DNA of 64,000 nucleotides from Paramacrobiotus metropolitanus. Taxonomy: Eukaryota > Tardigrada > Eutardigrada > Parachela > Macrobiotidae. The stretch is from NCBI RefSeq assembly GCF_019649055.1, contig NW_026570260.1, forward strand, positions 62,001-126,000. The letters are read 5' to 3'. Made by a program: the position numbers and the translations under genes. Shown here piece by piece: positions 6,276 to 57,690 of this stretch. Position 1 is the stretch's first letter. Each line of letters opens with the position of its first letter. The notes below the pieces were generated by a model, which saw only the letters and a program-made list of their open reading frames with translations, ran no database searches and was not told the origin of the DNA.

Positions 6276-8191
6276 TTATTTTATTGTTAGGTTAATATCA
6301 TTCGTACCCCCAGAAGTGTTCGAGTGCCAGTAAGCAAAGTCGGAGTGTTTCTCATACAGAACCAAATTTCCATCGCTTTGCATAATCAGCTGCACGTCAC
6401 ACAGTCCGCGATATGTCCCTGACTCCCACTTCACCCGGTACGTGGCTGTGTCGTACACTATCAAATTCCCGGTAGGATGGACAAGCAGGCAGGTTTTTCC
6501 ATCAACAGAACAGAGTTTGTCTTGCGCGTAGAGAACGTCGTGCTGGCCTTTAACGCCCAGAATGCCAACTGCAAAAACGAGTACAGACGTAAAAAATCAG
6601 ATCTTCTAGTATATGCAAAGTGCTTGGTAATCAGTTATGGCCTTGGTTAACGTACAGCTCTGTAGTTGTGAGTCGTGACCTTTTGTCCATGTCAATAAAG
6701 CGGGTAATATAACTTGCCCAATCCAAGAGATTATGATTAAATATTGAAACCCTTACTCAGCGAACAATGCAACCGTAAATGAACGTTAACAATATAGTGT
6801 ATTCATGTAAGTACCGCTGTTGCTGACAAGTAAGGACTGGCCCGCATGTACGCATAAGGCTGTTACAATAATATACAAACGAAATCGGCTTAGCTGTTAA
6901 CTTAATTTCACTTTTCCAGGTTTGACGGTAACAAGTAACGATGAATACTTTGCAGCCTTTGCTACAAATGAGAGTTTACCTTTGGTTTGAGGCTTTCTTT
7001 CATGAGGACAAAAATTCCGTTCAGGACTGTCAAGAGACTGCTCAACTTTTGCCAGATCGGCTTGAAGTCTACGCACGGCGTCGGAGGACGTGCTGGAGTC
7101 GGAACTACATCTGTCTAGGCGCTGTGTTAATTCTTGTTTTTCGAGCCGTGCAATTCTGCTGTCCTCCTGAATGGACTTGATCTGCGCGTCAGCCTGATTT
7201 ACTTGCTGCATGAGCTGGGTCAGCTGCGCGCTGAAAGCTGGAATGGTTTCGTTTTTCAGGATTTCCATCTCACGCAGTGGATCTGGCCAGCTGTCCCTGT
7301 GTTGGCCGGATTGCATACTGACTGTTGTCATATAGTTGCTCAGTGCGGTACCGATGCGCAGCGGCAGTTTTTTTGGCTACCGGCCATTATACCCATCGCT
7401 TTAGCTAGATTATCTTGTCGGTATCTTTCGTCGGCCCAGTATGTGCTATTCCACATGGTCTCGTTATAGTCATCCGACGATATTTTGTTGTGTACCAAGA
7501 AGCTAGCCATGTGCTGCACTAAATCCTCCATGACTTTGTGCTCGATGTATTCTCCACCATCCAGTTCCTTGCTTGTAACGCACATCAAGATATCTCGCGC
7601 TATCTCATCCACGTCCCGTGGATGGAGGTATACATGGCCGCTATTGCCGAAGCGATTTTCAATAGTGTTGAACGTGGATGAGCAGAATAAATAACGTGGA
7701 ACAACATCAGCTACGGTGTTGCGGGCTTTCGGTAGCGTGAAGCTAAATGACATCATCAGTGTCGATGTGAACTGGTCACTCTGATCTTTGACTGCAGTGG
7801 CGATAATGGTGCAATGCGCAGTGTTTTGACAAGGAATTCTCCCCGTCACAGATGCCAGAGTATTGGCAAGCGGTGCCCAGTTGTCATCCACGCGAGATCC
7901 TTGAAATTCATAAGTAGAGATTAGGCGAAAGAAGGAAAACGGCATGGGAAGGAGAATGGGATGTTTTTGTTCGGTCAAAAGTGAAGCGGCTTTGTCCAGG
8001 TAAACATTGTCCCATAGCTGTATCGTAAAGGTCACCACATGTTGACCGTTGACTACGTCCAACAGTGTTTGGACTGTGTCTGGCTTCAGCGCTCCCACAG
8101 GCATAAAATAAAAGGTGTGGTCTGAATTGGCTGCATTGTACAGCGGTATGATGCGTCCGTGAAGCGGAAATGTCAGAGTTGGCTTGCTCAT
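6276..8191 (-). CDS. Chimeric protein: unknown N-terminal domain, coiled coil, bulb-type lectin
   Basis: The gene is read from 8191 downward. Exon 1 (8191-6980) encodes a roughly 270-residue N-terminal region that I do not recognise, then a heptad-rich coiled coil. Exon 2 (6568-6276) encodes a mannose-binding bulb lectin domain with the motif QSDGNLVLY and a second partial repeat HPTGNLIVY. The exons join in phase 1 if one base is added in an A7 run at about 7362-7368. As written, the frame stops at 7340 and the coiled-coil frame reopens just after it. I therefore suspect a homopolymer error or a recent frameshift. The corrected protein would have about 501 residues. No signal peptide is seen. 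The last codons and stop overlap an AATAAA poly(A) hexamer. Lectin call secure; overall function unknown. Confidence 0.7.
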
Positions 8192-10651: not shown

Positions 10652-12518
10652 TTATTTTTTGGGAATATCGGGGTTCTTGTTCCAAATATTATTCCGTGTA
10701 TCGGGAGTGCGGCACCAACCCATTCCACTCCACCAATGCCCCAGATGCGCAATGACCTTACGCTGTGGCTCACGCGTGTTGAGAATTGTGCAGACTTTAC
10801 ACCATGACAACTTGTCCGCTTCCAGTCCGACGCCCAATCGTGATGTAGCAGGGTTCATGCGCCACTGGAAGTATTTGCGGTATTCGGTGGGGTTCTGCTC
10901 CAAAAACATCAGGTAATCGGCGAGAGCTTTTGGGTTGGCAAAATCGAGAATGTTTATGAAAGAATTTTGTGGGAAAATAGCGGAATAATTCGCGCCACCG
11001 TAAACCACTGGCACGGCGCCGTGATTTAAAGCTCGATGGATTTTTTCGGTCACGTAGTCCTTGCAAACGCTGAAAAGTGTAAATATTACAAATTATTGCT
11101 CATTCCAAATATTTGCCGTTCATTGTAAAACATTGACTGATTTCGAATTATTAATTCATTGACACTTAGCGGATAAAAACTACTGGTCTGTATAATACAG
11201 TATGCTATATAAGTAATTTGACAAAAGCAGAAAATGCGGTGAATTGTAATAAACACTTTATGGTTCGACGGTATATCCCGTTAACTCTATTTCCATTAAA
11301 TAGCAATATAATATTATCGAGGAGTATGCCTTTTGAAATCTTCACCTGTTTTCAAAGGCAAGGTAAAATTTATAATTCGCCACAAGTTGATCGCAGAAGT
11401 CAGGCGTATCGGTACTGCACTGCTTTGTCCCACACTTTCCGTACACAATCACTTCGATATAACTTCCCAGCTCTTTTAAATACAAATCCCGACGACTCGG
11501 TATCCAATGGCAGTTGGAGACAAAAGTAACGGCGAAACCGGTTTTGTTGGCCAACAGCTCATAGAATTCCGGATGGGTTATAACAGTGGGGTGAAAGTGT
11601 TGGAAATAAGAGTCAGTTACAGCATCCGAATCCAACCGATACGTAAACGTCATATTAAAGAATCCCTGACGCCGATTTACGTCACCGATAGTATGGACCG
11701 GCGATTCTAATCCGAAAAAAATATAATACTGGTCTGGCGAACGCTGTGGCGGAAGATTTTCCCAAGAGAGATCTCGGATGTGAAAGATTATGGCCCCGCC
11801 GTCCAGAAATCGGCTGCGGTTGTTTGACAAGATGCAGTTGGAGTACGGACACTTTCGTATTCCGGATTCGGCTTCTTGGTACAATCGCAAAGAGGGAACA
11901 AAACCGTCACCATAAAAATTTGTCCAGAATAATATTAGGTGTTGGCGCTCGGGATATGCTGTTTGGTCCGATATGCTGTCGTCGAATGGAACAATTCCTT
12001 CCGACGTCGAATGTATTTCGAGCATGAATTCGACGGTATTGAGTATCGTATGTACAACTGCAAAGATGGTTAAGAAGAACGCGGATCGAAGTAGCACTGT
12101 TCTTAGGGTTGATGATCCTACGAAAAACGCCAGGTAACGTTTGGAATAAACCTAAATCTACAACAAATTTCAATCTACTACCGATTTTAAACAAAAAATT
12201 AGGTATGTTAATAATTACAATATGAGCACAATGACCTTAATTAATATAGCATTTTACCTTTATACCTGTATTCTGTACACGGGCAGTAAATTTCGTACGG
12301 TTAATAAAGTTATTTACTGCTATTCCTATTTATTACTAATTTTCTCAAAATAAATTAGAAAGGCTTTAGAAATCCAAAAAGCCATGACTTCGTGGTTCCA
12401 GTACAAGCAATAATCCATTATTTCCAGTACACTTACTTTTGCCACATTTTCCGAAAACTGAAGTAAATCGTTTGCCGCTGCCCGGAAACCGTGGCCTCCA
12501 AGAGTTTAAGGTAGTCAT
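10652..12518 (-). CDS. Alpha-1,3-fucosyltransferase (GT10)
   Basis: The predicted protein has 423 residues from three exons: 12518-12437, 12117-11346 and 11069-10652. Phases 1 and 2 match at the two junctions. The enzyme would transfer fucose from GDP-fucose to N-acetylglucosamine on glycans in the Golgi lumen. It shows type II membrane topology: a basic cytosolic tail, then a transmembrane helix at about residues 36-56. The GT10 donor-site signature appears as FENS then VCKDYVTEKI (about 283-295), followed by HGAVPVVYGG. The first exon is inferred from an ATG, a strong GTAAGT donor and the need for a start upstream of the membrane helix. The stop codon lies inside an AATAAA hexamer. The family is secure; acceptor linkage (core or peripheral) cannot be read from sequence alone. 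Confidence 0.88.
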
Positions 12519-20269: not shown

Positions 20270-23200
20270 TTAAAATAAGCCAAAAAATCTACCACGCCGA
20301 CCGCTGCTCTCTTGCCCAAACCGCGGTGGAGCCGGTTCCCGAGGCGGAGAGCCAGGCAACCATGGATAGCTGGGACGTCGTCCCCGCGGGACTAAGTCTC
20401 TAGGTTCCATCTCCGCGGCATTTCGACCAGACGACCGCCCTTGGAAATTATCGAAAGCATCGAAGCACTTCTGTACCAGGTTCCGTTTCGGCGGCGATCG
20501 AGGCGAGTACTTGGGAGTGTAAAAGACCTCCTGATGCTGCGACTCCTGCCCGCGCGTATCCTGTACGATCTCCACTAACTCCCGAATTTTTTGTCCATTG
20601 AGCGGCGAATTTTTTGTCCATTGAGCGGCAGCCGATACAACGAGCGCATAGCCATCGTGATTTCCTCGGCGGTGATTGGCTGTTCATGGTTACCCGCCTG
20701 CATCGCTTCTTCCAGGATTTTCCGCTCTTCTTGGTACGCGTTTAGCATATTCTGATAGTTCTCCAGGACAGCGCGACTGGCACCGACCGCAATTTTTTCG
20801 CGCTCCGCCGAAATCAGGTAACGGAGGTACTCTTCCATGGCGTCATTGTACGGCAGCATAGCGTTCTCCTTCAGGAAGTAGCCAAAACGCACCGACACTC
20901 TGCGGATTTCTTTTTCTTCAGATTTCAGGTCATTCTTGCGTTTTTCGATGTCCAGAAGCATAGTCTGAACGGCGGCAATCTGGCCGTTCTTCTGCTGGAG
21001 CATCCGCCGCACGTTTTCGTCAACTGTACGCTTTTCCACTTCGTGCACTTCGTAGGTAATATGCATATGCTTCTCCCAAATGCATCCGCAATGTTCACAA
21101 CTGACACCACCGCTTCGCTGCATTGCCGAACATTTCTGTAACTCCGGTTGCGGATACTGATTGACAGTGACACCCTCAAGAAAACAGTGATCGTGGCACC
21201 AAGTCACATAATTCGCCTTGTTACCCACCATTTTAATGCACTTCTCCGCAATACACACGGTTCTTGGGAACCCCAGCTGTGTTGCTTCTAAATCGACGAT
21301 TGGAACGAAGAGCTTTTCTTTCAACGCTTCTCGGCTGCTGGCAAACGCTCGTATCTCGGCTGCTTTATCGTCGGCCAACTGCAAGTTCAGTTGGATATTT
21401 TTCGTAATATGTGTCAACGGTTCGGTAAAGGAGAGAATTAGGCGTCGAGCTTCGTTTAAAGAGATCGTATTACGCAGCGCATGGGGTGTTCGAGTCATGA
21501 CAAACTTCAGTAATCGCTCTGTCTCTTCCACCGACTTTTCCCAGCTCTTCATAAAGTTTTCTTCATCTGTTTGCGAAAAGGTCACGCCCTGCTTCAGGGC
21601 CGCCATGAAGCGTACCGCTTCGCTATCCACACAGTAAATTGTCGCGCTGCTCAGTTCGATATCCACTCCGTTAGATTCCTTAATTCGCTTCTTCAAAATC
21701 GGAAACGTATCACCCGGACGGTAGAACGTCGATCGTGCGTTGGTAAACACAAAAGCGATATTGTGGCATGCATCACGGTGCAGATGCGTCAGCAGCTCCT
21801 TGATGCAGAAACGAAACATAATGTTCAAGCGCGAATTATTGGGTTTCAGAAGAATGCAGATGCCGTTGATTTTGTCGTAATTTGCTAGATGCTGCATGAT
21901 GAACTGGAAGTTCTTTTTATCCTGTTCGGTGCCCCGGGTGTCGCCAATGCCGGGCGTGTCAATTAGGCGGACAATTGTGTGACCTTTCTTAAAGACATAA
22001 CTGCGTGGCATCTGAGTGGCGGACTGGCCCAAAACGCTTTCTTCGTTGCTGCTCGAGCCCATTGTGACGACCTGCTCTTCAAAATGTTCGTTGAGTGTGG
22101 TGAAATGGGCGGGAATCAGATACACCGGTTCGGCGAGGGCGTCGTCCAGATTTGAATATGTTAAGAAGTTAGCAAAGCCATTGATGAACGTAGATTTGCC
22201 AACCCCCGTTTCGCCTACAGTACAGCAGAGTGGTTCTATAATTTTATTTTATTTTCTATATTTTCTGTTCTATAACTGGGTCAGATTAATCATTTAAGTA
22301 CAAAAAGCTTAAAAAGAATTAAAACCGGAGGACGATAACCAGCGCAAGACCGATGCATACCTAGAATCAGAATGTTGATTTCGTCAAAAGGCTGTATATC
22401 CAGCAGCAACCTGTCCATGACCGCCGGCGGAAATCCGATGTGCTCGTTCCCATGCACCTTTTCCCCGCAATGAAATACAAAAGCTCTTGCGGGAGCTTTA
22501 CCACAGTTGCAATAGAAGAATCCATCGAATCCGTATTCCAGACCTTGAGCACACCCTGCACATCTCCACCGGCGATTTTCGGCTGAGCAACCATGCATTT
22601 CTCGCGATCCCGGACAAGGTATCTCTACATCTCCGCGGTTTTTTGGTTTCTGCCCTTGTTCGGGAGTTTTTAGAGGTTTTGCGGTGGCTTCTGGAGGTTC
22701 TTGAGTTTCCTGCATAATGACTTCACCAACTAGCTCTCCGTAGCGGTAACACCAAACGGCAGTCTTTGTCGGGGACAGGCGTGGCGGATTACGCATTTGT
22801 GGATCTACAAATATGAACAGCGCGTTTTGGTGGTCCGGACTGTCACTGAGCCCCAGGAAGCTTTGCAAAGATTCATTCCACTTCGACGGACTGTCGATGC
22901 GATCACGGTCATCATTGTGAAAAATGTACGTAACGGAAGCGCTTTTGATCGCTACTGAAAGGTCATCGGTTATTTCTCCAACAGGAAATACATTTTTCTC
23001 TTTAAGCATCGCGACTATGCTTGCTTTTCCGGGAGTTAATTCTTGCCCTTGTATCCGTTCTGCGCCTGCATCTTCTGATTCAGTAGCCGTACTTTTGAAG
23101 ATTTTGTGTAACTTTGCCTCAGTCTGGGAAACACTTGCTCTGGGCTTTGATAGTGGCAACTCTTTCATTTTTTTATTTGCATGTTCAATTTTTGCTTCGG

Positions 23201-23714
23201 AAAGTTCTTGCGTAACTTCAGTAACCGAAGGTACCGATACTTCAGGCTCGGCAGCTGCGGCCGTTGAAGATTCCGATTCCTCGTTTGCGTAAAAGGTGAT
23301 ACAGCTCGAAAGAGGCGTACTGGGCGTGGCGACCGTTGTGCTTTGGGAATGCTGGGTGGATATTTCCTTTTCCTCGTCAGCTCTTTCAGTCTGAAAATCA
23401 ACCTCACCTTTGAGTTCCCACAGATTCTCGGAAACGGGGTGAGTGCGACGGCATTGATCCGCTTTCAGAGATTGTTCTGTCATAAACCCATCTGGTTCAG
23501 CCTGCAAATGTTGATATTTTTTTGTAAGAGCATAGATATGAAGATTATGTAATTCTTATTATAGACCAGGGATTTAGTATCAGTGCGTTAATCTAAATGT
23601 TGTAATCAATATCTGTACCTGAAGAAGGGCTGTGGGATTTTCATCCTGTGGCAGATCATCCACAATTTCAAACTCCGAAGCAGACGAATCACTGCGTTCA
23701 CGGCTCACTTCCAT
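20270..23714 (-). CDS. Large zinc-ribbon P-loop GTPase, copy 1 (C-terminus frameshifted)
   Basis: Exons are 23714-23619, 23501-22361 and 22214 downward. The frame stops at 20575, giving 958 residues. The N-terminus has the acidic motif SEFEIVDD. Exon 2 has a low-complexity linker and a zinc ribbon (RCAGC ... YCNCGKAP). The exon 2/3 junction completes the P-loop GETGVGKST. DTPGIGDT follows, then a region shared with the paralogs (FTNARSTFYRPG) and a second Cys/His cluster ending CIWEKHMH. A 23-bp unit is repeated at 20584-20606 and 20607-20629. Removing one copy would keep the frame open to 20270, matching the tail of the paralogs (FYTPKYSP versus FYSPK). The duplication therefore truncates the protein or is an assembly error. 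P-loop class secure; cellular role unknown. Confidence 0.85.
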
Positions 23715-25049: not shown

Positions 25050-27672
25050 TTAACAAGCGCGTATAAAGTAAAGTACAGCATAAAAAGGCGGCATGTTGTT
25101 GTGTGGTTCGCTTCCCCCAGCTTTGGCTGTGTACTGCCATCCATCGAAGATCCCCAGTGGTTCTTTACCTTCCATATGTATATTACTACTAAATCGGTAA
25201 ACCGCGTCGTTATTAAAGGTGACGAACCGGCCGCCATTCTCTACGGCGTGCCAGTGACTAGGCATTTCCTGAATAGTTAATTCATGCGTCTCTTCGCCTC
25301 CTGTGGCGCACAAAGGATGTGCAGTTGTGCGGCCCAGCGGGAAACGCCCTGATAAGTTCGGCAAAACTCCTGAAGGAAAAAGTTTAGCCAGTTGCGGAAA
25401 ATCTTCGGTGGAGAATGTCTCTCCCTCACACCGCATCCAGCAACGCGGCAATGTCTGCGCGGTCTCCGTGGCGAACGCAACAATTGATCCGATAGGTGGC
25501 GCATTGTTGTTATCGTTACTGATGAGCATATTGAACTTCTGCAAAGTATTATTTGTTGAATCGAGGAGAATCTGTAGCCTAGCCAACGATGCAGAAGAGA
25601 CCGCTGTGCTGCCCGCTGCGGGTGTGGCTGTGATCTTTTTCTCCAAATCTTTGCTATAAATGCGCAATTCGCGCACTTCTTTCGCCACAGTACTGCAGTT
25701 ATTCTTTATATCTTGGAGCTCTTCTGTTACATCCTGTTCTTCAGTCTTTGTGCGCAGCGTCTGAATGTCCTTGCTCAACTTTTTGATCTCGTCTTCCAGT
25801 TGGCTAATGCGGCTGGCTTGTTGCGATACTTTGGCTGTCAGATCTCAAATTAAAATAGCTAGTAAATATTCTATGTGGATATTGGATTTTTCCAACAGCA
25901 CGCTACAAGTTACACTTTCATCATCTGGCGAATAATGAGGAGAGGATACCGGTTGTGGAAAAATCTGACGATTTACGATAGCTTAGTTATATGAGTGAAA
26001 ATACTTGATACAAACTAAAACTCAAATAATTGTACGCATACAAAAGCGAAAGTGTCTCAAAGCAAAAGTGCAAAAGCGTCTCCTGCGGCAACTGAATTGT
26101 GCAGAGTACAAGACATCTAAAGTCTAAACATACTGTACTACGAGTATATTCTTGTTTTCTACCTTGCAAACCACTTCCGGTGGCGGTCGAACAACGAAAA
26201 CACTTCTGAATTCTGACCACATCCAGTGTGCTTAGATTTTCGTTCTGGCCAACTTTTGCCCGTTTGACTTTCGGAACGATGGTAGGCGTGCTGTTGTCCT
26301 TGGCAAAAGCGTTGTATGCATAGTGCATTACCGACTCGTAATCATACGGTAATCCGTACGTTATTCCCGTATCATACTTTTGGAACTGCTCTCGATTATC
26401 TACAGTTTAAATCAAACATAGCAACTCCGGAAGAAGAATTGGATAACTTTGCTTTCGACGCTGCAAAATTTGTTAGGTAGCAATCTGGCTCGAAACAACG
26501 AGAGCCAAAGTATGAGAAAAGCACCAGTTTTGACTTCTATATTATCTCACCCGAGATGCCATTTTGTACTGCATACTGTACGTATTGATATTGATACTTT
26601 ACGTTGAGTACATTATTATCACCGATAAAACCCTGTTCACATAACCCTTTAGGATGTACTACTATGCATGTATACGCCTTGTTGGTTACCCTCGCTGATG
26701 TTATCCCAAATGATTGTCACATAATTATCGCGGTCGGAGCGTGATTGTTCATGGAGAAAGCCCATCGTGTGCATAAGTTCATGTTGAACATCGCCGTGAT
26801 GCTGCATGCATGCTTGTGAGAGCCAAACCTGCTGCCGGCTTCCAGTTCGTCCAATACTAGACATGCACCTAACAATAAAACCCAAGCATCGAAGGTTATA
26901 GCTTTCTTACAATATGATACTTACTAAGTCTTAGGATTATATTCAATGCGGCAAACAACGAGCAAAGCTTACTGAATGCCTCTTTGAAAAACGATGTAGT
27001 CTTCTTCCGTGGATCGGCGAACAAATTTGATACAGTTGTTGGTCAGCTGGCTGATAAGTGCCATGGACTGCACCACGAAGGCGGTTTCTTTTGTACCTGC
27101 AAATCAAAGCACACCAAAAATTTATTACTCTGTCAGCTCTATGGCACAAGTTTTGCGTACTGAATGTCGCAAATTGTTTCCGTGTGAATTCGTACGGTAT
27201 GGTATTGTTGGGCCACAAAAGTTTCGTATCGTCTACAGCGTTGGCGGCTCCTTTCGGCGTCTTTTGGTAATGAATGCACAGAAACTGTTAATACTATTTT
27301 GCGTAATAATGGACAGGTAAGGTTACGTACTAATGAGCAAAACTACCCTTAATTCTGCAGACTCGTAAGAGTAAACGCTTCCTTGCAATCTCCTTACTTG
27401 TTCCGGTTTTTCGAAGCCGACCATGTCTCCCTCCATCATGTCGCTATCATAACGTCCTTGGTGCTCTTCGCTATTTTCTAGCATATCCGGATGGATGTAA
27501 TCCCTCCAGTCTGTTGACGGAGCGACCAGATATAAGACAAGAGTGATGGTGCAACGAGTGTTCTACCAGTATAGCAAACTAGCGTTTGTACCTTACTTTG
27601 GATTAAACCGTATGCTGTGCTACAATGACACAGGAAGAAAAGTAAAGGAAAAACTGTCGACGTTGTCGGCAT
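25050..27672 (-). CDS. Astacin metalloprotease fused to coiled coil and phage-tail-collar-type domain
   Basis: Seven exons (27672-27597, 27510-27398, 27260-27161, 27096-26973, 26868-26690, 26399-26163, 25843-25050) give 540 residues, and every junction agrees in phase. Residues 1-23 form a signal peptide. A short propeptide has MEGD (51-54) where the family's zinc-switch FxGD is expected. The peptidase domain has HELMHTMGFLH (zinc ligands His167, His171, His177) and the Met-turn SVMHYAY. The last exon encodes a coiled coil (about 277-380), then a tail-collar domain (about 392-540) with LPNLSGRFPLGRT, EMPSHWHAV and PHNNMPPFYAV. That exon has no usable upstream ATG and has an in-frame stop just before its acceptor, so it must be spliced to something. 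The astacin exon end at 26163 (GTAGAA donor) fits its phase. Likely secreted; target unknown. Confidence 0.75.
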
Positions 27673-29377: not shown

Positions 29378-32330
29378 ATGAGGTCGCCAGCTACGGTGAT
29401 ACCGGTATTGCTCTTACTGGCTGCTTCTTGGTGAGAATATACTGTACCGATATATTTTCAGTTTTACGACAGTAAACTTTGACGTTGCGTTAGTACAAAG
29501 TCTAATAATTTAATGTCACTTTCGACCGCATGTGGTTTTACCTTTCCACTGCACCGATAGGGCGGACAAGCCGCGCCGTCCAAAACCCGGAACAATCCCG
29601 CTGACGCCAGAACAGTTAAAACAGCAGCCGAAATTCATCGCCACTCACCGTCATCGGGCTGTCGGTGCGATTCCGGAATGCTTCGATGCCCGGGAGAAAT
29701 GGTCGCAGTGTAAGAGCATCTCGGATATCCGTGATCAAGGAGGTTGTGGCAGTTGTTGGGTAATGATCCCAGTCGGCGCACTGTAGCGGATCTAGCTCGT
29801 AGAAGGCTGAAAGTGCTGCATATTGTAATATTTTAGGCGATGGCATCCGCCAGCGTATTGTCCGACCGGATTTGTATTTCCGAATTAGCGGCCGGTAAAG
29901 AACCCAGCCAGACGTACGTGTCGGCGTCGTACGTCGCTAGCTGCAGTTTTGAACGCGCAAAGAAGAACGGCCAATCAAAGTGAGTATTCTCATTTTTAAC
30001 TTTGTTTCTTACTGTGGAATTTATGATTTCAGCGAGCACGAACTTCGATACGAGTATAAATCAGTAGCACCAATAAATGTGTTGTTGAGATCACGAATCC
30101 CTTGTACTTTTTCAATATTACAGTATTTAGGGAAGTAGCGGTACAAGAATCTAATCGTGAACACGAAAAAACCATAATTTTCTTCGATACATTTTTGTAA
30201 TACGTGGTGATTGTCGTATTAATGACCATAGCATTTGCGAAACTTTAAACACGCGATTGCAGCTGTAATAATGGAGGATCACCGGCGAATTTTTTTCGAT
30301 GGGCAGCCACCAGCGGCTATATAACCGGAGGTAATTACAACAGCCATGTTGGATGTCAACCATACCCAGTCGCCCCAGACCAGCATGAGGGAGGCAACTT
30401 CACGTGCACATCGACATGCACCAATCCGGAATACGACAAAAAGACCGTTGTCGAAGACACCGCTTTAAGTGCGCAGCAATATAAAAAAATATATTGATTA
30501 AAAAAATATATAATCACGTTACTTTTACCAAAAGTGGCACTGTGTATTTACCATCTGGCTGTATTTTCGTAGTTGACAGTTACTACGTAAGTCCTCTGGT
30601 AGACCCGATAAGCAGCATTAGTGGTCAAGAGGCCCGAACCCAAGAAAGGATTGATGCCCAGGTTCTCCGCATACAAACAGACATTTTAGCCAACGGCCCA
30701 GTTGTCGCTTCCATGAACCCGTACGAAAGTTTGTATAAATGGAAGCCGGAAACAGGTAAGAAATTCTCCGAGAGGTACCAATCGCACGCAGAAAAGCTGA
30801 TTAAAGTATGGCTAATACTCTACTTAGCGTGAATTAAAGAGCTATATCGTACAAAATACAAATTAATAGCTTCAGCTACCAGGCATATTTAAAACCATTA
30901 CAGGTCCTTACCGAGGTGAACTTAACCAAAAGGTTAAACCAACAACCACAACCCACTCTGTCCGTATCGTTGGTTGGTGCAAAGACGATAAAGGCATTAA
31001 GTACTGGAAAATCCTTAATTCCTGGGGTACAAATTCCGGCGTACCTGGCGAAGGTGAACTTAAGTTTGAGATGGGGAAGAATGTAGCCGAAATCGAAGAA
31101 AGTATTGAGGCACCGATTGTTTCGCTCCCCAACACGTGTGCACCGATATGTCAGTCCCGCCTAACACAGATTATCCGCCAAAATCCAGCCGATTTGACCT
31201 CGCCGATTTATGCCTTCTTCGGTACATGCAGAAAAACAATTCAATGCAGAAGAAATGGCTACTGGGTTACAAATATTTTCAGGGAACTGCGTTGTAAAAA
31301 TCAGTATAAACGACGCCGGTCAGATATCTCTGGTCAATGAACCACAACCAATCGGCAAGGTTTTCGTCGCCGCTCCAGCTGGACCAATTGTTAAATGGGA
31401 TCCACACATTTTCAGTCCTCAAAAGGGCGAATTCTGGATTATTAACGTATGTATATTTGTGTGACTGAAAATGTTGATTGAAAAATTCCTCGGTTATTCA
31501 GGTTACCGGAAGGTCAACTCTGCCTACGCAGACAAAAGCTCAGTTTAAACATTTCGCTTTAAACGTTTTCTAATGCATACTGATGCATACAGTTCAGCTA
31601 TAAATGGACGCTATGTACAGGTTTTAATATTCCTAAGTTTGTACATCCTAAATTTGTTGCAATGTAAAGCCGAATGCTTTTTCAGCCTTCCGGTCAAGCA
31701 GGTGTCTGCACGCCAGTGGCCGGCTCCTCCAAGTTCGACTGTCATGTCGGCTCAACTGACGGCAACGCAACAGCTTCAACCGTGGTGGGCAAGGATCATT
31801 GGCAATTCAGTAAGCCACTCTTGCGCTAAGATTTTCTGTGGGATCCGATGGATTGCTACGTTGTTAACGTACTGACAATGGAATTCGCATTTAGAGTCAA
31901 CGCAACTGAACAATTTCAAGTACATCTTCACATATTCCCCGGATTTCACTGTGGGGAGTCTGAACATTGGCAACAAATTAACCAATCGGTTCACTATTGT
32001 TGACACCTTCTTAAATATCGACGGCAGTACGATTTTGGTCTGTGGTTTGGATAAACAAGAAAAACCAGCCTGTTCGACCATGAACATCGCCACTAAGGAG
32101 GTCAGTAGTTTTGACAAAAAAATCGGTATAATTGTAACTGTTACGTTTGATCTTGTAGTAGTATACGTAAGAATGCAGGATGTATAGTAAAGTTTTAAAT
32201 CGGTAATTATAAGTAGCAAAAGTCGCGGTGTAAGTCTTAAATACTGTGCAAATACCACTTTAGGTTACTCCATCCCAACCTGTGCAATCGGTTATTGCAT
32301 CCTGTCAACCGCAACCCTAGAGACCTTTGA
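29378..32330 (+). CDS. Cathepsin B-like cysteine peptidase with long C-terminal extension
   Basis: Proposed exons are 29378-29430, 29561-29759, 29837-29979, 30263-30468, 30573-30755, 30904-31221, 31250-31446, 31502-31564, 31686-31809, 31895-32100 and 32274-32330, giving about 582 residues. A signal peptide (residues 1-17) precedes a short propeptide. The papain-fold catalytic residues are Cys83 (RDQGGCGSCW), His279 (THSVRIVGW) and Asn300 (LNSWGT). The SHVGCQPY segment places it near cathepsin B. The occluding-loop region lacks the double His of cathepsin B, so dipeptidyl-carboxypeptidase activity may be absent. About 250 residues after the peptidase domain match nothing I know. The frame changes near 31222-31249. 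Either a 28-nt GT-AG intron lies there or there is an indel. Exon 31502-31564 uses a weak donor. Peptidase call secure; tail exons less so. Confidence 0.75.
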
Positions 32331-33315: not shown

Positions 33316-33429
33316 TGCTTGCCCAGCACACTTTGTACTCTCGCATTTGTTTCCTGCCGAAAAGTGATATCATATTGGTAAGTGGTTGTAAGTGGTAAAC
33401 ACTTAGCACTTAAATAACTCTCCAAGAAA

Positions 33430-35593
33430 ATGTCGGAAAATCCGCCTGTTGCTCTCCAATTCAAATCCTCCGTCCAGCAAGCGCTGCAGGCGCACTTCGA
33501 CAGCCTCTGCAAGATCAGCCACGAGATATGGAGCCACCCTGAAATCGGTTACCACGAGCACCACGCAGTGCAACAGTTAACGGAGTACATAGAAACGAGT
33601 GGCTATACCGTGACGCGAAATTTCTGCGATATTAAGACATCTTTTTTGGGAGAATTCTGCACTGGCGGCTTCGATCCCGCCCAACACCCAACGGTGGCAG
33701 TGCTGTGTGAGTACGATGCCTTGCCGGAAATCGGGCACGGATGTGGCCACAACCTGATTGCCATTGTCGGCTTGGGGGCTTTCCTGGCGGCAGCGGAGGT
33801 GCTCAAGACAGCCGGCACATCTGCGCAGGGCAAAGTACGAAGTGCCGTAGAAATCATTTGTGAAAGATATTTTCGTCTTTGTTTTAGTATACAATCGTGC
33901 TGCTAAACAATTTTGCAAACGTGTGAAAACCGGAATTATGAAACTGTTTGTCGAATAGATTGTCTGTATGGGTGCTCCGGCGGAAGAACTGGGAGGCGGG
34001 AAGGTACTTCTCGTGGAATCAGGCGCCTTCAGTGGTGTCGATTACGCTCTGATGAGCCATCCAGCGGCGGTGGACGTGCTGGAACCAACAATTCTGAGTA
34101 TCGATCATGTACGCGATTTATTGTTAGTTACAGTTCAAATGGTTTAACACAACTTTAATCGTAAACCGTATAATTCGTAAGTGGTTCACGCGTAGACTGC
34201 ACGCGTGCGCTGCTATGTACAACATACTACTACTACTATGTACAATATGGGACACCGTATTAACATGTAAATACTAAATATGTACAAGTACACACTCCAT
34301 GTACCACTAATAGTGCTGTGTTTATAACATTAACCGGACTAGCATTCATTAGTATCCACTGGACCACTAGCTTTTTATTTAACAGCACTATTTAACAGCA
34401 CTACCAGTGCATTCATCGTTGCTATTAAATGCAGTGGAAAGCGGAATTCTACGGCAAAGCCGCACACGCCTCTTGCGGTCCATGGGAAGGAGTGAATGCG
34501 CTGGATGCGGTGGTTGCCGCTTATAACAACGTCTCTATGTTGCGGCAGCAGCTGAAACCCGGCCATCAGATCCACATGATCATTACGCACGGCGGCGCTA
34601 AACCGAACATTATCCCGGATTACACCAAGGCCGACATCTACATTCGAGCACCCACCAGTGCCGATGTGGAAGAGTTAAGAAGACGTGTGGCTGCGTGTCT
34701 CCAGGCCGGAGCAGAAGCAACAGGTTGGCTTGCAGATACATGAGCTCACGAACGTTCTGCCTAGATCGACAATCATTTCCTTCATAGAACCGTATGACAT
34801 ACAAACCGAACTGCATCCTTAGATTAGTTAGGTCCAGACAGTAAAGCCGGCGCACAAAAAGTGCAGCAAAATGAAAAGAACTTCAACGGAACAGAAAACT
34901 AAAGCATTATATGCAAGTACAAATACAATTACCCTTAAGCAAGCGCATTTGAACAAGAGAAGTCCTGCTTAGGTTGCCGAGTGGACTACGGAATGAATGA
35001 TCTAAGCTATTCTGGCTTGATGAGCAATCAAAAGCTACTGTCTATCTACAAATACTTTGGCGAGAACAACGGTAAGTATAACCCACTACTTGCGTGTCCT
35101 TATCTTTAAATTTAGTTAAGCTTACATTGAATTGATTATAGGCATGCGCTTTATGACGCTGCCGCCTGGCATGTACGGCTCCACCGACATGGGCAACGTC
35201 TCCACCACCATCCCCAGCATTCATCCCACATTCTCTATCGGTGACTCACACTGCAACATGCTCCACACCAAAGAATTCCGCGACAGCGTAGGCCAGCCGG
35301 TTGCCCATCACTTTGCCATGAAATCAGCGACTGCCCTGGCTCTGACCGCGCTGGAGCTCTTCAGTAATCCGCAGTTCCAAAAGGACGTACGAACAGAGTT
35401 CGACGAACGTCGACCGGGATTTATGGGAAAAGCGCCCGAGGGGACAGATTCGACGGATGGTGGAGACAGGTCCTTGCAGCTGCCCAGTGGCTTCAATCCC
35501 GGACGGCGCCGGTCTAGTCGGCAGTTCCTGATCGAAATGGGTCTGCTGAAGCCGATGGCGCTGGAGGAGAAGAGAGGCAGCATCCAAGAATAA
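33430..35593 (+). CDS. PM20D2: PM20D2-like M20 family amidohydrolase/dipeptidase, copy B
   Basis: Five exons (33430-33834, 33959-34108, 34435-34723, 34973-35071, 35142-35593) give 464 residues, with all phases matching. The metal-site motifs match those of copy A: GHGCGHN, APAEELGGG, a His in MSHP and MLHTKEF. Exons 2, 3 and 4 have exactly the same lengths as in copy A (150, 289, 99), so the genes are duplicates. Copy B has no intron at the position corresponding to 3683-4318 of copy A, and its C-terminus is longer by about 30 residues. It lacks a signal peptide, so it should be cytosolic. One Gly of the AEEGGGG motif is replaced by Leu, which might alter substrate preference; that is inference. 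Confidence 0.9.
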
Positions 35594-36669: not shown

Positions 36670-38646
36670 ATGGACCCGAAACCATTGCTATGGTTTCATT
36701 TTTATGTTTGCCTTATTGGAGTATCGTCGGCCGGGTTTTTGGATAGAGTCAAGCAGAAACTGGGTATTGGAAATGACAGAGGGAGCAGTAACAGCGACAA
36801 CAGCGGCACCCGTGTTTCCCAAGGCGCCTTAACTCCCGTGATTATCCGTAAGTCAAGACGGAATAACGTTCGCTTCATTATTTGTGACCCAGTTAGCGTT
36901 TACTTTAGGGCTGTTTTCATAAAGAATAACTGTACACTGGCTCCTTTCTAAACAACTTACTGAGAGCGTGCTAGCCATAAACATAGTGTTTTTGTTTTCC
37001 GCACTGCAATATAATGCTTACCGCATTTTGTATCATCACAGTGCCGGGTGACGGCGGCAGCCAACTTCAAGCATGGTTAGAACGGACGTCGGTGCGCAGC
37101 AACATCTGTCCTATGAGAACGAATGGTTGGACCCACGTATGGGCAGATCTGGATATGCTCATCCCCGGATTGGTTGATTGCTGGGTTGACAATTTAAAGT
37201 AAAACCTTTCGCTATAACGTCCTGTGGTTATCCGATTGGCGATTAGATATTCACTGTATGACTATCGTTGCAATTAAATAGGTTGATTTACAACAATATC
37301 ACCCGAAAGACGTCCAATCCTGAAGGCGTGCGGACACAAGTCCCTGGATTTGGGGACACCGACTCGATTGAATACCTAACCGGTAATCAGTTACCTGGAT
37401 CCAAGTATCTCGCCTACATCGTGGATATGCTGGTCGACAACGGGTACAAACGCAACGTCTCGGTGCGCGGTGCTCCGTACGATTTCAGGAAAGCTCAAAG
37501 TAGGCAAACCGTTTCCTGAATGCTCTCGAGCACTGTTCACCAGTACTGATTTTGGTTTGTTGCAGATGAGCAAGAAGAGTACTTCATTCTTCTAAAGAAA
37601 TTAGTGGAAGACACGTATGCCGCCAACGGCAACCACAAAGTGACGCTGATCGGGCATTCGCTGGGCTGTCTGTTCTCGTTGTACTTCCTTAACCATCAGA
37701 CACAGGAATGGAAGGATAAATATATTAATGCGTTCATTGGGATGGGTGGACCATGGGGCGGGGCGGTGAAGCCTATCAAGGTGATTGCCACAGGGGATGA
37801 TTTGGATATTGCTATCGTCAGTCGCAGCAAGATTAAGGATATTCTGCGTACCAATCCCAGTGTAAGCCATACCGGTGATTAGGACAGCGCACTTGCGCAT
37901 TAAATAAGTAACTCATCAGTTAGCAAACAGTCATGGTTTAACCTATAAGTAAAAGTTTGGTGCACCGTCCTATTCGGTTCTTGCAGGTCGCTGCGCTGTT
38001 ACCGTCAGATAAATTCTGGGCCAAGAATGAAACGCTAATCTACACCCCACAAAAAGTTTACAATCTGGGCAATTTAAGGGAATTCTTCTATGACCTGGAC
38101 TTTCCTGAGGGCTGGGAATTCTACCAGGATACCAAGAATCTCGTATATGACCTTATTCCACCTGGAGTAAAAGTAAGCGTTCAAGAGAAATTGTTGATTA
38201 TTAGTTTGTTTCTTGTCGGTTGAGTGGTTTTCGGTGTTCTGTTGACAGAAAGTGATTGGTAGTTTTAAGATTTCAAAAAGAAATGTGGTAGTACAGAGCA
38301 TAACGTGAACCTTGTTGTGTAGACTACTATGCTGCTATGTGTATCGTAATCTATGGCGTGGTGATTTCAGACTTATTGCCTTTCTGGTACCGGCACGGCG
38401 ACACCCGCAACGTATGTGTACAAGGAAGGCGGCTTCCCGAAAAAGATTCCCATGGTGATCTCGGAGGATGGCGATGGCACGGTGAACCGGCGCAGTTTGG
38501 ACGGGTGCGAACGATGGAAAGGCAAGCAACGCGACGAGGTCGTCACTAAGACATTTCCCGGTGCCGGCCACCGACAGATGACACGCGACAAACAAGTCCT
38601 GGACTATATTCGGGAAATACTCTTCGATTACCAGATAAACGGCTAA
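36670..38646 (+). CDS. PLA2G15: Group XV phospholipase A2 / LCAT-like acyltransferase
   Basis: Six exons (36670-36847, 37042-37198, 37282-37499, 37566-37861, 37987-38172, 38371-38646) give 436 residues in consistent phase. A signal peptide is present (hydrophobic to about residue 20). The LCAT/PLA2G15 entry motif reads IILPGDGGSQL. The triad is visible as Ser216 in GHSLG, Asp380 in DGDGTVN and His412 in GAGHRQM. The segment VRGAPYDFR, conserved in the family, is also present. In vertebrates the enzyme acts in the lysosome, deacylating phospholipids and transferring acyl groups to ceramide. The length and motifs fit a full enzyme. Family secure; the split between PLA2G15 and plasma LCAT rests on overall similarity from memory. 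Confidence 0.88.
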
Positions 38647-39274: not shown

Positions 39275-41644
<2,370 letters not shown>

Positions 41645-42433: not shown

Positions 42434-45233
42434 ATGAGTGTCGCCATATTGTATATTGAGATAATTCTGTTTATGTTGGCTTTACACCGCAATGGATTGT
42501 GCCGAGGTATGTGCAGACGTTTGCTGAATGTAATCCCATAATCGTATTCACTTTGCACCACATTTATTGTTTGCGCGCATTTGCGAATTTTGTTTACAGC
42601 TCAAAGGCAAGAGTAAAGTATACTTCTATTCATTGTGTTAAGTTTCATCTACGCAGAGAACACACCGTAGGATAGTAACACGTAAATTTGTGCGTGTGTT
42701 TCACTGATCTTTAGCTCTTATCGTCAAACGGAAATCAGTAGCACTGATTTTCAGGATTGGATTCGCCGGATTCGAGCCATTACGGCGAGGACACCGACAA
42801 CCAGGAGAATGAACTTTTCCAAGGCGACATGCTGGGAATATACGGCAATGAATCAAAAAACGATGATGTAATGATTCCATTTCGGTACATGTGCAGCTAA
42901 TGGGTACGTACATCAAATCCAAAAAATTTGACATTTTGTCCTGCAGATGCACGATAATGTGCTCAATTCGGAAAGGTCACGCTGGCCCAACGGAATCGTT
43001 CCATTTCAACTAGAATCTGCGCTCAGTAAGCTGCATCAGCAAACCAGTTGTTAATTTGCCCGAAAAACTATGAGATGCTATGATTCAAGTCTGCGCTGTT
43101 TACTTAGGAGTCAACAGATCTTTAATTCACGCCGCCATGGCGATAATTTCCCAGAAGACCAGCGAGTGCATTCGCTTTGTTCCGCGCTCAAATGAACCGG
43201 TTTTTTTGCGCATATTACCGGCACCAAGATCAACGTATGGATTCGATTTTCTACTTTGAAAAACCTTTTCTGAAACAGTTCAACCGTTAAACCAATTAAC
43301 TAAGCGGTTTACTATGGCCTTTTGGGCTCTTCCTGTTTGTCACAACTTCTTTTGTACTTCTGCCTGGTTATGGGCACCTGTTCCGTTCAAAGGAGATTGA
43401 ACCTTATTCTGGGACAAAAATGTGCTTGATGTGCAAGACGTCGTTTGTGTGTACAATAGATGTTCTGCCGAGGTCGGATATGCCACCAGTAGCCGACGAT
43501 TGCAATTGTCACCCGAGTGCTTGTTGCACGATGTCATCCACGAGCTGATGCACATTCTGGGCTTCTTCCACGAACACACACGACCTGATCGCGATGAGCA
43601 TGTGCTCATTCATTTCGACAATATTAAAGCCTCTAAGCGCGGTGAGATTGTCATTTTATGTCACTAAAAGATACCGGTTTGCTCGTCATGATGCGGTTTT
43701 AAATACGTATCCTTATTCTTAACAGCGGCCTACGATGTGGACTATGACAAGCGAACTGATTCCGACACTCTGCAATTGCCATACGATTGTCGCTCGATTA
43801 TGCACTATCCGCCGAGCAATGCACGCTACGCTAAAGATCCTAACAGGCCGGTCATGTCGGCAAAGCCGGGCAGCACTTGCAAATTGGCCCCAACAAATAA
43901 TATGGTGCTCACAGACCTGGACGTACAGAAACTGTATACTGCCTATAAATGTCAGGAGCGTAAGTACTGTATACTCATACCATACTGTAACCTCTCTGCT
44001 CATACTATGCCAGTGTGCCATATATTCGCTCGAAATAAACGATCATTATATCTCTATACGTATACAGTATGGAATGGCTAAAAACTGCAGTTCTATTGAA
44101 AAGGGCGATTGATCGGCTCCTTTCTCGATTGCTCCACATCAGATTTTGCAAGAACAGCAGCTGTATATTATTATACGTCAGTTTGCTCCTACACAATGCA
44201 TGCTGATCGTGATCGCGTAGTTATCAAGTCAAAAGAGTCCGACAACAGTAGATCTAGAATTTGCGTCTTATGGCATATAGATTGTAGCTACCTTTATTAC
44301 TACTGCCATAATATCACCAAACACACATCTTGTTTTTAGCGATAACGTGCCACTACTCGTACTAGACTCACTTTTTTTATTGCCCGTGTAGGAGTGTTAT
44401 ACTGCAATCTCAGCGTCGGCCAGTGTCATGTGTATCGCGAAACGCTAACCACCACGGAAAAATCCAGCTGGCTGAGAATATATGCCGCCATGAACAAGTG
44501 TCAGGAGAAGGCTCCCCAACGAATATCCATCTACTGTTCGGCAGCAGCCACAACCGGCGACCTTCAGGGTATCGGCAACAAACTGCAGCTGAAAACTGAC
44601 GTACCGGCTTATTCTGCTTACATCGCCGACGCAGTCATCAGCAAAAGTAAGTTCCTCCAACCGATCAAAGACAAGGTCATACAACTGGGGATAAACAACT
44701 GCCAAAGCGCATCCACCACGTCCAAACTACGCGATGCAGGTTTAAATGATTTACTGGATTTTGGATTATTCTTTTGTTACAAACAAGAAATTCAAAAAGC
44801 GGATTTTGAATATAACTCCAAACTGAAACGATTGGTCTTTCACTCGACTACAATGACGAGTATCGAAGTCAACGCCTTTGATGCTCTGACGGAGCTGCAG
44901 CTGTTCCAGATGGAAGAATACTGGAAAGCCCGCGAACAAGTGAAGGTGTCACACGATACGGAACTGCGACGGCATTTACAGTTAATTCATTGTGACTGCC
45001 GGTACCATTGGCTGCGCAGTTGGTTGGCCAATAAGCCGCGCTTATTGAGCGAAAGGTCACTGGACAGCATTGTACCGAGTGATCGGGGGGCCATAAAAGT
45101 GGGAGAGATATACATTCCGGTGAGCTGTACAAATGTGCAACAATCGGTGAGGAATTGGAAGTTACACGAGACAACGCGGTATTATAATAAAAAACGCGAA
45201 CCATTTGCAAAAAACGCCGAAGTAAGTTGCTGA
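42434..45233 (+). CDS. Astacin metalloprotease with C-terminal LRR/LRRCT region, copy 2
   Basis: Seven exons (42434-42506, 42755-42867, 42947-43025, 43108-43234, 43460-43641, 43726-43959, 44392-45233) give 549 residues in phase. The layout mirrors copy 1 exon for exon, with exon 5 identical in length (182 bp). A signal peptide, a propeptide switch [12 protein letters not shown], the zinc site [11 protein letters not shown] and SIMHYPP are all present, so catalysis looks intact. The last exon carries the same Cys-rich segment, an LRR ([19 protein letters not shown]) and [13 protein letters not shown]. Exon 6 is seven codons longer than in copy 1. The exon 4 donor (GTATGG at 43235) was chosen by phase and homology. 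The pair clearly arose by tandem duplication and has since diverged substantially. Confidence 0.87.
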
Positions 45234-45875: not shown

Positions 45876-48800
45876 CTACCACAAATACTTGCGAAGGAAT
45901 TCCCGGACTCCGTATCGGCTGGACGAATCGACTTCCATCTCCCGTGATGGCGATGGCGTACGACTTCGCATACGACGAGGCGGAGCACGCGACAACGGAG
46001 CATGCACCACTGGCGGCAGCGCAAACGCTCCACTCCACGGCACACGTCCCACTCCAGATGGTCCTCCATACTGCTCCATGCGACGGTCCTCATCGTACTC
46101 CATCATCCGTTGCCAGTCGAACGCACCGCGACCATACGGGCGCTCCCCTTCGTGACGGCCATAGTCCCCGTAGTCATAGTCGAAGACATCCATCAGACGC
46201 TGCATGCCATTGCGCTTTTTGGCCTTCCTCACGTTCTTGGGATGCTTGGGAGAATAGAAGATCTCCGAGTGGCGCTGCTGCTGCCCATGCGCACCCTGCA
46301 CCACGTCCACCAAATCCCGAATGGTCTGTCCGTTGATGGGCAAGCTGTACAGTGACCGAATGGCGTCCTTAATGTCTTTCGCGGTGATTTGGCGATCTTC
46401 ATCCTGATTCTGCATAGCATCTTCGAGGATGCGTTTCTCTTCGCGGTACGCATTTAGCATTTTCTGGTAGTTTTCCAGATTGTCACGGCTGGCCCCGATG
46501 GCGATTTTCTCATACTCCGCCGAAATCAAATAGCGCAAATACTCTTCCATGGCATCGTTGTATGGAATCATGGCGTTCTTTTTCAAGAAATAACCGAACT
46601 TGGCCGACACTTTCCGGATCTGCTCTTCTTCCGCCGTCAAATCCATCTTGCGCTGCTGCAAATCATGCAACAACAACTCCACAGCAGCGATCTGTCCGTC
46701 CTTCTGGCGCAGCAGATCCTGAATATTCGGATCAACCTCTTTGATCTCCGTTTCCTGCAGTTCGTACGTAATGTGCATATGCTTCTCCCAAGAGCACTGG
46801 CAATGTGCACACGATAGACCGCCCGTTGGACTCATGGCTGCGCAGCTTTTCAATCCCGGCTGCGGATACTGATTGGGCACAATCCCGGTCAGATAGCAGT
46901 GCTCATGACACCAGGTGATGTAGTTGACTTTTTGCCCCACCATCTTAATGCACTTCTGCGAGATGCACACCGTCCGCGGGAATCCCAGTTGCACCGGCTC
47001 CAAATCCAGCACTGGGACGTACAGTTTGCGTTTCAGTTCTTCCCGGCTGTACTTGGTGGCTTTGATCTCGTCGGCTTTGTCGTCAGCCAGTTTCAGATTT
47101 AGCTGGATATTTCGTGTAATCTGGGCCAACGGTTCCGTAAAAGACAGAATCATGCGCCGCGCTTCGTTTAAAGACAGTGTATTTTGCAGAACATGCGGTG
47201 GACGTTCGGAGATGTACTTGAGCAATCGTTCAGTCTCTTCCACAGACTTCTCCCAACTCTTGATGAAATTATCCTTCTCAGTTTGATCAAATTCCACCCC
47301 CGCCTTCATTGCGGCCATGAAACGTACGGCTTCGCTGTCGACGCAGTACACCGTGTCTTTGTTCAGCGTAATGTTGACACCTTTGGAATCTTTTATCAGT
47401 TTCTTCAGAATCGGCATTGTATCACCCGGACGGTAGAAAGTCCCACGTGCATTGGTGAACACGAAGGTGATGTTGTGACAGGCATCGCGATGCAGGTGCG
47501 TCAGCAGTTCCTTGATACAGAACTGGAACATGACCGTCAGGCGCGCACTGTTCGGCTTCAGCAAAATACAGATGCCGTGCAAACTGTCGTAATTGGACAA
47601 ATGTTGCATGATGTTGACGAAATTCTTCTTGTCCTGCTCCGTTCCGCTGGTGTCGCCGATGCCGGGTGTATCGATTAAACGAACCAGAATGTTGCCCTTC
47701 TTGAAGACGTAGCTTTTGGGCATCTGGGTGGCTGACTGACCGGTCATGGTGTCCTCGTTCTCCGGTGCGGCCAGCGCTTTCATGAAGATGATTTTTTCAT
47801 CGAAGTTTTGATCCATCGTAGTAAACTGGGCTGGAATCAAATACACCGGTTCGGCTAGAGCTTCGTCCAGGGTGGCGTAGGTGAGAAAGTTGACGAAACC
47901 GTTGATCCATGTCGATTTTCCCACACCGGTCTCACCTACAAAAGTAATCTGTTATGTAACGATTGGTGTTGTTGATGATGCTTTGCTCTGCTTATCTTAA
48001 TCGTTCTTAACTGACAGCGCCTTTTGCCGGCAGTACCTTGCGGTTAATTTACATGTTACACAGAACAGTAATCAACGTCATTAGTAAACTAGCCATAAGT
48101 CTTACGCATTTCTACTGCACTATGAATACGAGTAGTACTTGTTCTACTTGTACTGCATCCCAGCTTGAGCGACCCAACTTCAAGTACACTGTACTGTATA
48201 CTCACCGCTCGATACTGTATACTGTACCGCTCTTGCAATTCAATGAAAAGTACGATGTAGAAATATTGTAAAACAGAAACTGTAAAACAAGTATGTCAAT
48301 GTTATTGTAAACATCGGCAATGACAATGAAATAATAAATGTATGACAACGAAAAGACTGTGGAAGTGCTAAGTAGTGCAACTGCAATAACGTTCTTTATA
48401 TACCGCAACCGATAACGATTATAACGGAAAATTTCGTATTTGTTATTTTGCAATTTTGAATTTAAAGGTAAAATCCAACTCAGTTACTCCAGATATTCAA
48501 TAATAATACGAAAAGCGAACAAGTCATTGTCAATAACAACAGTACGTTACAGTACAAGGCAATCCAACATTAATAAGATCTGCTGTAACGGCTCTAACTA
48601 AACTTGAGTGTAATTGCAAAAGTTTAATACAGTAATACTGAAAAGGTCAACCGCACTGACTTACCAAGAATCAGAATATTGATTTCCTTGAAGGGCTTCA
48701 CGGTTTTCAGCACCGCCTTCACATCACCGAAACCAACATAGTCCCGCCCATGCCGCGTTTTCCCACAGTTGAATACGAAGGAATCAGCTGGCGCTTTTCC

Positions 48801-57000: not shown

Positions 57001-57690
57001 AAAGACGGGGAAATTGTGGCAGTCGGGGTGTTTCTGGACGAAGTGGAGCAGCGAAAGTTGGCTTTGCATCGCGAGGAAAAGGAGATCCGTCTAGTGGCGG
57101 CCAAATTCGGATGTTTCTTGAAACGCAACGCCATGATTCCGTATAACGATGCCATGGAGGAGTATTTGAATTACTTGATCTCCAATGAGAAGGAAAAGAT
57201 CGCTGTCGGTCTGCCGCGGGATCATTTGGTCGGGTACGAGCGGATGTTGCGGGAGTATCGTGAGGAGAAGCAGTTGTTAGAGGAGTCGATGCAGAGCGGG
57301 GAAAAAGAGCATCAGCTGACAATGGAAAATATTGTGGAGGCTATTCAATCTCTGTACGGTCTGCCCATCAATGGACGGCGAATCCGCAGTTTTGTGGAGA
57401 TGATGCAGGATGTGCGCAAGCAGCAAACGCAGCATAACGAGATGTTCTACTCGCCAAAAATCTCACGGGTGCGTATCAAGAAGTACCGGGATGAGGACAT
57501 GTATGGACGACGGCGTGTCAGTTTAGCTCCACTGCAGTATGATTATTCTCCGTATGGGATGCATGTGCGCCGGTCGGGGTCACCGTCGCGTCTGCCGATG
57601 GCTAGCTCGCCGCGAGACGGTGGTGGAATGTTCAATCAGCTGTGGCAAGGAGCGATGGGAAGGTTCTGGCCGGGACGCGGGAATTACTGA
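54030..57690 (+). CDS. Large zinc-ribbon P-loop GTPase, copy 3 (intact)
   Basis: Three exons (54030-54161, 54692-55685, 55781-57690) give 1,011 residues in perfect phase. A second in-frame ATG at 54042 may be the true start. The N-terminus holds ESEFDILDD. A Pro-rich linker follows, then a conserved region (LLDILRTRAVLILGEI) and a zinc ribbon with Cys309, 312, 326, 328 and 340. The P-loop GETGVGKST is at 376-384 and DTPGIGDT at 461-468; TNAR near 533 lies where a G4 motif might be. A second Cys cluster (Cys696, 701, 715, 719, 737, 747, 750, 752) ends in CSWEKHMH. A long charged region and a Pro/Arg-rich tail follow. This is the only undamaged copy, so it is the best reference for the family. 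Function unknown; immune or membrane-remodelling roles are speculation. Confidence 0.9.

Follow-up and report, generated by a model that had tools for sequence, protein, structure and literature searches.

The collar tips of phages form trimers, hold a metal via an HxH motif and bind surface sugars or proteins; in the fibres of T4, the tip folds around the metal held by this motif. Multidomain astacins (M12A, PF01400) are composed of a signal peptide, a prodomain and a catalytic domain followed by extra C-terminal modules, and astacins are defined by the zinc motif HEXXHXXGXXH together with a Met-turn containing tyrosine (PMC9848320, in the part of the review available). That review also gives FXGDI as the prodomain motif, describes how, in the zymogens of animal astacins, a prodomain aspartate blocks the zinc, and cites more than 100 downstream domains for helminth astacins, not all of them named (PMC9848320). 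Chimeric genes arising by horizontal gene transfer (HGT) are an established class in arthropods, according to the accessible sections of PMC13389597. The collar domain is also carried by virophages (PMC12724248 and PMC3671162, each as far as available), and LPS binding has been proposed for virophage DSLV2 in the available part of the former (PMC12724248).

Within the window, i.e., the whole 64-kb stretch of DNA that was analysed, the sequence supports a seven-exon model in which a single gene would encode an astacin whose C-terminal part is a coiled-coil-like stalk followed by a genuine tail-collar/tip domain (hereafter the collar astacin). The seven minus-strand exons, running from 27672 to 25050, join in phase, as had been claimed in the original prediction, to give an open frame of 540 codons plus TAA, and all six introns (64-319 bp) are bounded by GT..AG. 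Exon 1 (27597..27672) holds the start codon and a hydrophobic leader that reads by eye as a signal peptide, and exon 2 (27398..27510) encodes the prodomain. The catalytic domain, as delimited by Pfam, begins in exon 3 (27161..27260), continues through exon 4 (26973..27096) and exon 5 (26690..26868), the latter carrying the zinc motif HELMHTMGFLHE, and ends in exon 6 (26163..26399), which also encodes the SVMHY turn, a linker and a phase-1 donor. The last intron, predicted at 25844-26162 and found at exactly these positions, is in phase 1 and separates the protease from exon 7 (25050..25843), which encodes the coiled-coil-like stalk (residues ~277-385) and the tail-collar/tip domain (~391-540). 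The protein order is leader, prodomain, complete astacin domain, coiled-coil-like stalk and Phage Tail Collar domain, and animal-type and non-animal-type parts lie within one open frame of what is a gene model rather than a transcript. Neither AATAAA nor ATTAAA occurs between the stop codon and 24000, no second copy of the collar exon was found within the window at E 1, and a search for mobile-element repeats between 24000 and 29500 found no direct repeats and one weak 23-nt inverted pair. The tRNA and Rfam searches returned no matches.

The protease part was assigned by Pfam Astacin (PF01400), which matched residues 79-268 with an E value of 2.9e-54 (184 bits against a cut-off of 22.5; profile positions 2-189 of 189). 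Both the zinc motif (of the form HEXXHXXGXXH) and the SVMHY turn, a SIMHY-type Met-turn with its tyrosine, are present, and the astacin domain is intact, as had been predicted. Furthermore, alignment to 3lqb places cysteines 118, 139, 158 and 267 at the positions of the disulfides C42-C198 and C64-C84, with residue 158 off by one. The prodomain carries MEGDM, which is aspartate-switch-like; the Gly-Asp of FXGDI is kept, but the Phe and Ile are not, and the strict form of the motif is absent. Among solved astacins, 3lqb (E 3e-36) and 3vtg, the high choriolytic enzyme (2.3e-33), are closest in sequence; in all, 17 distinct sequences pass E 0.001, one of them crayfish astacin.

A profile search of the collar region against the tail-collar family upheld the original assignment of this domain: Pfam Phage Tail Collar (PF07484) matched residues 395-445 at E 3.5e-8, above its curated cut-off (33.7 bits versus 24) and over the full profile (1-57 of 57), and the motifs LPNLSGRFPLGRT, EMPSHWHAV and PHNNMPPFYAV are all present. 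Exon 7 also matched tail fibre families in PHROGs, with values down to 5.9e-16, whereas NCBIfam gave coiled-coil-type matches only, all below their cut-offs. Together, the motifs and the Pfam and PHROGs matches place the collar astacin far beyond chance. When eight tail proteins (seven from phages and one encoded on a Ruegeria megaplasmid) were aligned with the window collar, the likeness to a phage tip spans the whole ~150 residues, beyond the Pfam core, and 13 columns are invariant, including HxH and H.N..P. A larger alignment of 36 sequences, made of exon 7 and 35 of 168 loci (46 loci having been looked at), retained 10 invariant columns, including C415 and His473/His475 in the 540-residue numbering, and HxH was invariant in 36/36. 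When the profile of this alignment was searched against the PDB, 11 sequences were matched at E 0.01, 10 of which are phage tail fibres or similar proteins: 8kec (4.1e-19), 9nxk (3.5e-13), T4 gp12 with related sequences (3e-12 to 9.1e-9), the Bizionia C24 protein (3.1e-7) and T4 gp37 (0.0043) were among these. The remaining match, at 0.0075, is an unrelated antibody chain.

The coiled coil that had been predicted between astacin and collar is seen as a coiled-coil-like stalk in open frame, and the AlphaFold2 model of exon 7 (mean pLDDT 74.8, pTM 0.45) places helices at exon residues 2-33, 39-72 and 83-107. In this single-chain model the collar core is well modelled (block means of 88-95 at exon residues 131-160), and the tip half is weak (53-66 at exon residues 181-250). 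That the stalk trimerises the collar is plausible; however, the first heptads, read by eye, carry Ile in the a and Leu in the d positions, a pattern that under the GCN4 rule would suit a dimer, and a trimer is therefore not assured. Foldseek against the PDB gave three of 255 matches at E <=0.001, all of them tailed-phage structures (the T4 gp37 tip at 6.1e-5, and the T4 baseplate and a Pseudomonas phage fibre at 8.7e-4 each); with TM values of 0.33 or below and rmsd of 13-49, only parts superpose. Against BFVD, 54 of 360 matches reached 0.001, and those named among the matches listed include collar, tail, baseplate and microcystin-dependent proteins of tailed phages or unnamed viruses, as well as proteins of Orpheovirus, Cafeteria roenbergensis virus, Terrestrivirus and Fadolivirus.

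The nearest relatives found for the collar are tail proteins of phages, prophages or plasmids, at ~34-44% identity. Searched by tblastn at E 1e-5, exon 7 matched 154 of 50,697 phage records (8e-15 being the best among the matches listed) and 12 of 72,556 plasmid records; a query of 148 collar-region residues matched 281 of the same 72,556 at E 1e-3. The collar core alone matched 267 records of the phage collection at E 1e-3, and its top-ranked row is an Arsenophonus nasoniae record, a tail-collar fibre protein with 44.3% identity over 61 residues (E 4e-9); the same match recurs on an Arsenophonus plasmid, amid phage tail genes. The tip half alone matched 173 records at E 0.01, the matches listed being Streptococcus and Microbacterium phages at 38-41%. 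Scans were performed with a three-sequence alignment, a nine-sequence alignment being too diverse for this purpose. In bacterial and archaeal genomes, 103 of 235 pattern matches were confirmed, the best 80 at 25-41% identity, and in viral contigs at least 405 were confirmed among at least 600, the best 80 of which were kept; a narrower scan of viral contigs confirmed 30 of 84. Exon 7 used as a single-protein query against viral contigs yielded seven pattern matches and no relatives.

A tree was built from 168 loci, reduced to 133 whole-domain open frames and then to 104 rows including the window (one per locus, with identical copies dropped), the window row being the sole eukaryote. In this tree, the window collar pairs with locus L089 at 96/92, on an end branch of 1.49 and in a bootstrap that had not settled. 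L089 lies on a phage-type contig and encodes a stalk, collagen-like by eye, and a collar, and its neighbours look by eye like genes for phage tail and lysis proteins; the HNN motif kept by the window collar is missing from L089, and the tip motif GG..H.N..P is common to the window collar and the eight aligned tail proteins but not to L089. Given these rows, the searched set places the window collar closest to a phage, which is not to say that it was taken directly from one. The earlier claim of horizontal transfer is supported insofar as the searchable relatives are phage, prophage, plasmid, bacterial and archaeal, but not as a direct transfer: the domain occurs in viruses of eukaryotes, too, and with a comparison set of phage, plasmid, viral-contig, bacterial and archaeal sequences, direct transfer is not separable from an older origin or one in a eukaryote virus.

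Base composition at third codon positions (GC3) is 0.53 in the stalk, 0.48 in the collar and 0.53 in the astacin exons, and that of five phage or bacterial rows is 0.14-0.18 and 0.89-0.90. The host-like codon choice was reached by 0/500 random recodings for the astacin, 0/500 for the stalk, 11/500 for the collar and 33/500 for the leader and prodomain. As a test of origin, codon usage was rejected: two GC-rich phage or bacterial rows (0.189 and 0.195) scored above the host genes (0.100), and three AT-rich rows fell far below them. The values largely track GC and are proof of neither origin nor age.

Two further astacin genes lie in the window, both on the plus strand. The first (39995-41644) has its last catalytic exon from 40420, a phase-1 donor at 40625 and a single last exon at 40782-41644, and the second (42956-45233) has its last catalytic exon from 43692, a phase-1 donor at 43960 and a single last exon at 44392-45233. 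In both, the phase-1 intron lies one or two codons past the last catalytic cysteine; in the collar astacin, it lies nine codons after Cys267 and is likewise followed by one large last exon. The last exons of the two sister genes encode ~280 residues each with 55% mutual identity and are weakly LRR-like, a label that comes from Pfam LRR_8 (E 0.016) in one exon, with no match in the other, and from inspection by eye; the predicted fold of this module has a pLDDT of 34.7. The sister astacins are perhaps a second unusual astacin architecture. A match in phase alone is weak evidence, with one chance in three per gene; the same phase at nearly the same place, followed by a different module, makes last-exon swapping the simplest account of the fusion. 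With three astacins in the window sharing a phase-1 junction and two different last-exon modules, the locus suggests a route of capture.

The remainder of the window was also surveyed. Adjoining the collar astacin, a papain-family (cathepsin-like) protease gene lies at 29514-31337 (+), identified by Pfam Peptidase_C1 and, for its N-terminal part, by eye. Three copies of a pair consisting of a large, intron-poor GTPase and a DUF7656-type frame are found at 20578-23555 (-), 45879-49397 (-) and 54677-57687 (+); the GTPases match MMR_HSR1, one of them also weakly AIG1, and one of the three DUF7656-type frames is below the cut-off. A short frame at 6279-6596 (-), near a coiled-coil frame at 6900-7376, has a weak B_lectin (bulb-lectin) match (E 0.00074, below cut-off). 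Two similar plus-strand genes at 1219-2859 and 33418-34740 are M20-type amidohydrolase-like by eye, and the one frame of this pair that was scanned had no Pfam match at E 0.01. Genes for a family 10 fucosyltransferase at 10655-12151 (-), an LCAT-family protein at 37550-37879 (+) and a Mec-17-type acetyltransferase at 63181-63594 (+) each fit an animal genome. The assignment to an animal is based on the introns, the astacins and such neighbouring genes.

We consider it probable that the gene encodes a secreted astacin zymogen with a stalk and a phage-type tip, formed by a swap of the last exon, in which the tip has its ultimate source in a tailed phage or prophage and tethers the protease to a target surface. 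The collar module would have been added at the phase-1 intron by last-exon swapping, and its source in a tailed phage or prophage may have been reached via a virus of eukaryotes. The stalk would oligomerise the protein, and the tip would fold around a metal held by HxH, as in the T4 fibres, and bind a sugar or protein at a surface, microbes or food particles being the likeliest targets; the protease would then be held on its target once the prodomain is cut off. The stalk that L089 likewise has before its collar speaks for this explanation. Counting against it are the pyrimidine-poor last acceptor, the lack of AATAAA or ATTAAA after the stop down to 24000, the weakly modelled tip half with the low TM of its Foldseek matches, and the absence of HNN from L089. 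A more specific proposal, that the animal acquired a phage's receptor-binding tip, perhaps from a phage infecting one of its symbionts, and joined it to a secreted protease through a last-exon swap, appears unlikely to us in this full form; as regards a symbiont's phage, the top collar-core row is a record from Arsenophonus nasoniae, an insect symbiont. Overlapping with the probable explanation, and a rival to it only with regard to origin, is the reading that the fusion is real but that the collar has long been present in animals or was acquired from a virophage, a giant virus or a related element of eukaryotes, with no direct transfer from a phage or bacterium in this lineage. We give this reading substantial, though minority, weight: virophages carry collar proteins (PMC12724248 and PMC3671162, in the parts available), the structure matches include collar proteins of giant viruses, the closest phage or bacterial sequence shows low identity, the window row sits on a long branch (1.49), and GC3 is host-like at 0.48-0.53. 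The pairing with a phage-type contig at 96/92 speaks against this reading, though in a bootstrap that had not settled.

Two other readings concern the gene itself. Astacin and collar could be separate products, an astacin-only form arising when the last intron is retained or the astacin ends early, and a collar-only form starting at M382 or in an unseen first exon. The last acceptor is weak, with few pyrimidines, and if the last intron is retained the frame stays open for 58 more codons before a stop, giving no collar. Exon 7 also contains in-frame ATGs, the first of which, at 25529, is M382 in the context TTCAATATGC with an A at -3; it lies directly before the collar, so that a collar-only product of 159 residues is possible. 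The original prediction, that the collar exon has no usable ATG and cannot stand alone, was thus only partly right: an in-frame stop just before the acceptor is present, as a TGA overlapping it, but M382 lies downstream. We nevertheless regard separate products as improbable, as the frame from the acceptor to M382 is open and codes for a regular stalk, the phases of donor and acceptor agree, and both neighbouring astacins likewise run into one large last exon. It is very improbable that the gene is an artefact of assembly or contamination or is decaying, because the seven exons are without frame damage, the catalytic motif and the key residues of the collar are intact, and stalk and collar resemble the astacin exons in GC3, unlike the five phage or bacterial rows. 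Furthermore, the best phage identity of the collar core, ~44% among the matches listed, argues against a fresh contaminant.

Compared with described systems, the collar astacin shares its signal peptide, prodomain, catalytic domain and extra C-terminal module with the multidomain astacins; however, none of the 31 entries in the Figure 1 legend of the astacin review has a collar, and the word 'collar' is absent from its main text (PMC9848320). Like the HGT chimeras of arthropods, it joins animal-type and non-animal-type parts in one frame, and the main text of that report does not contain the words astacin, phage, collar or tail (PMC13389597). The collar core, HxH, C-terminal tip motif and pre-tip stalk are as in the phage collar/tip proteins (PF07484), for which the tail protein of phiExGM16, the minor tail protein of Microbacterium phage Honk, the tail-collar fibre protein of Arsenophonus nasoniae, and T4 gp12 and gp37 served as comparators; these are parts of virions, whereas the tip in the window ends a spliced animal protease gene, at ~34-44% identity. 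The collar proteins of virophages and giant viruses, compared via structure matches and descriptions, place a like domain in viruses of eukaryotes, but they are virus proteins and not proteases, and the window gene is a protease. Among the literature matches listed, all from open-licence papers, no report described a collar joined to an astacin or the transfer of a collar gene into an animal. Some other animals do have annotated collar proteins, and the novelty of the architecture would fall if it occurs among these. Acquisition of recognition modules is a known trait of astacins, as HGT chimeras are of arthropods, and an astacin bearing a phage tail tip would combine the two, with the host-recognition part of a phage serving as the targeting head of an animal enzyme. 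If the capture of a phage tip is true, the protease would be aimed at particular bacteria, or at their glycans, by the phage's own recognition head.
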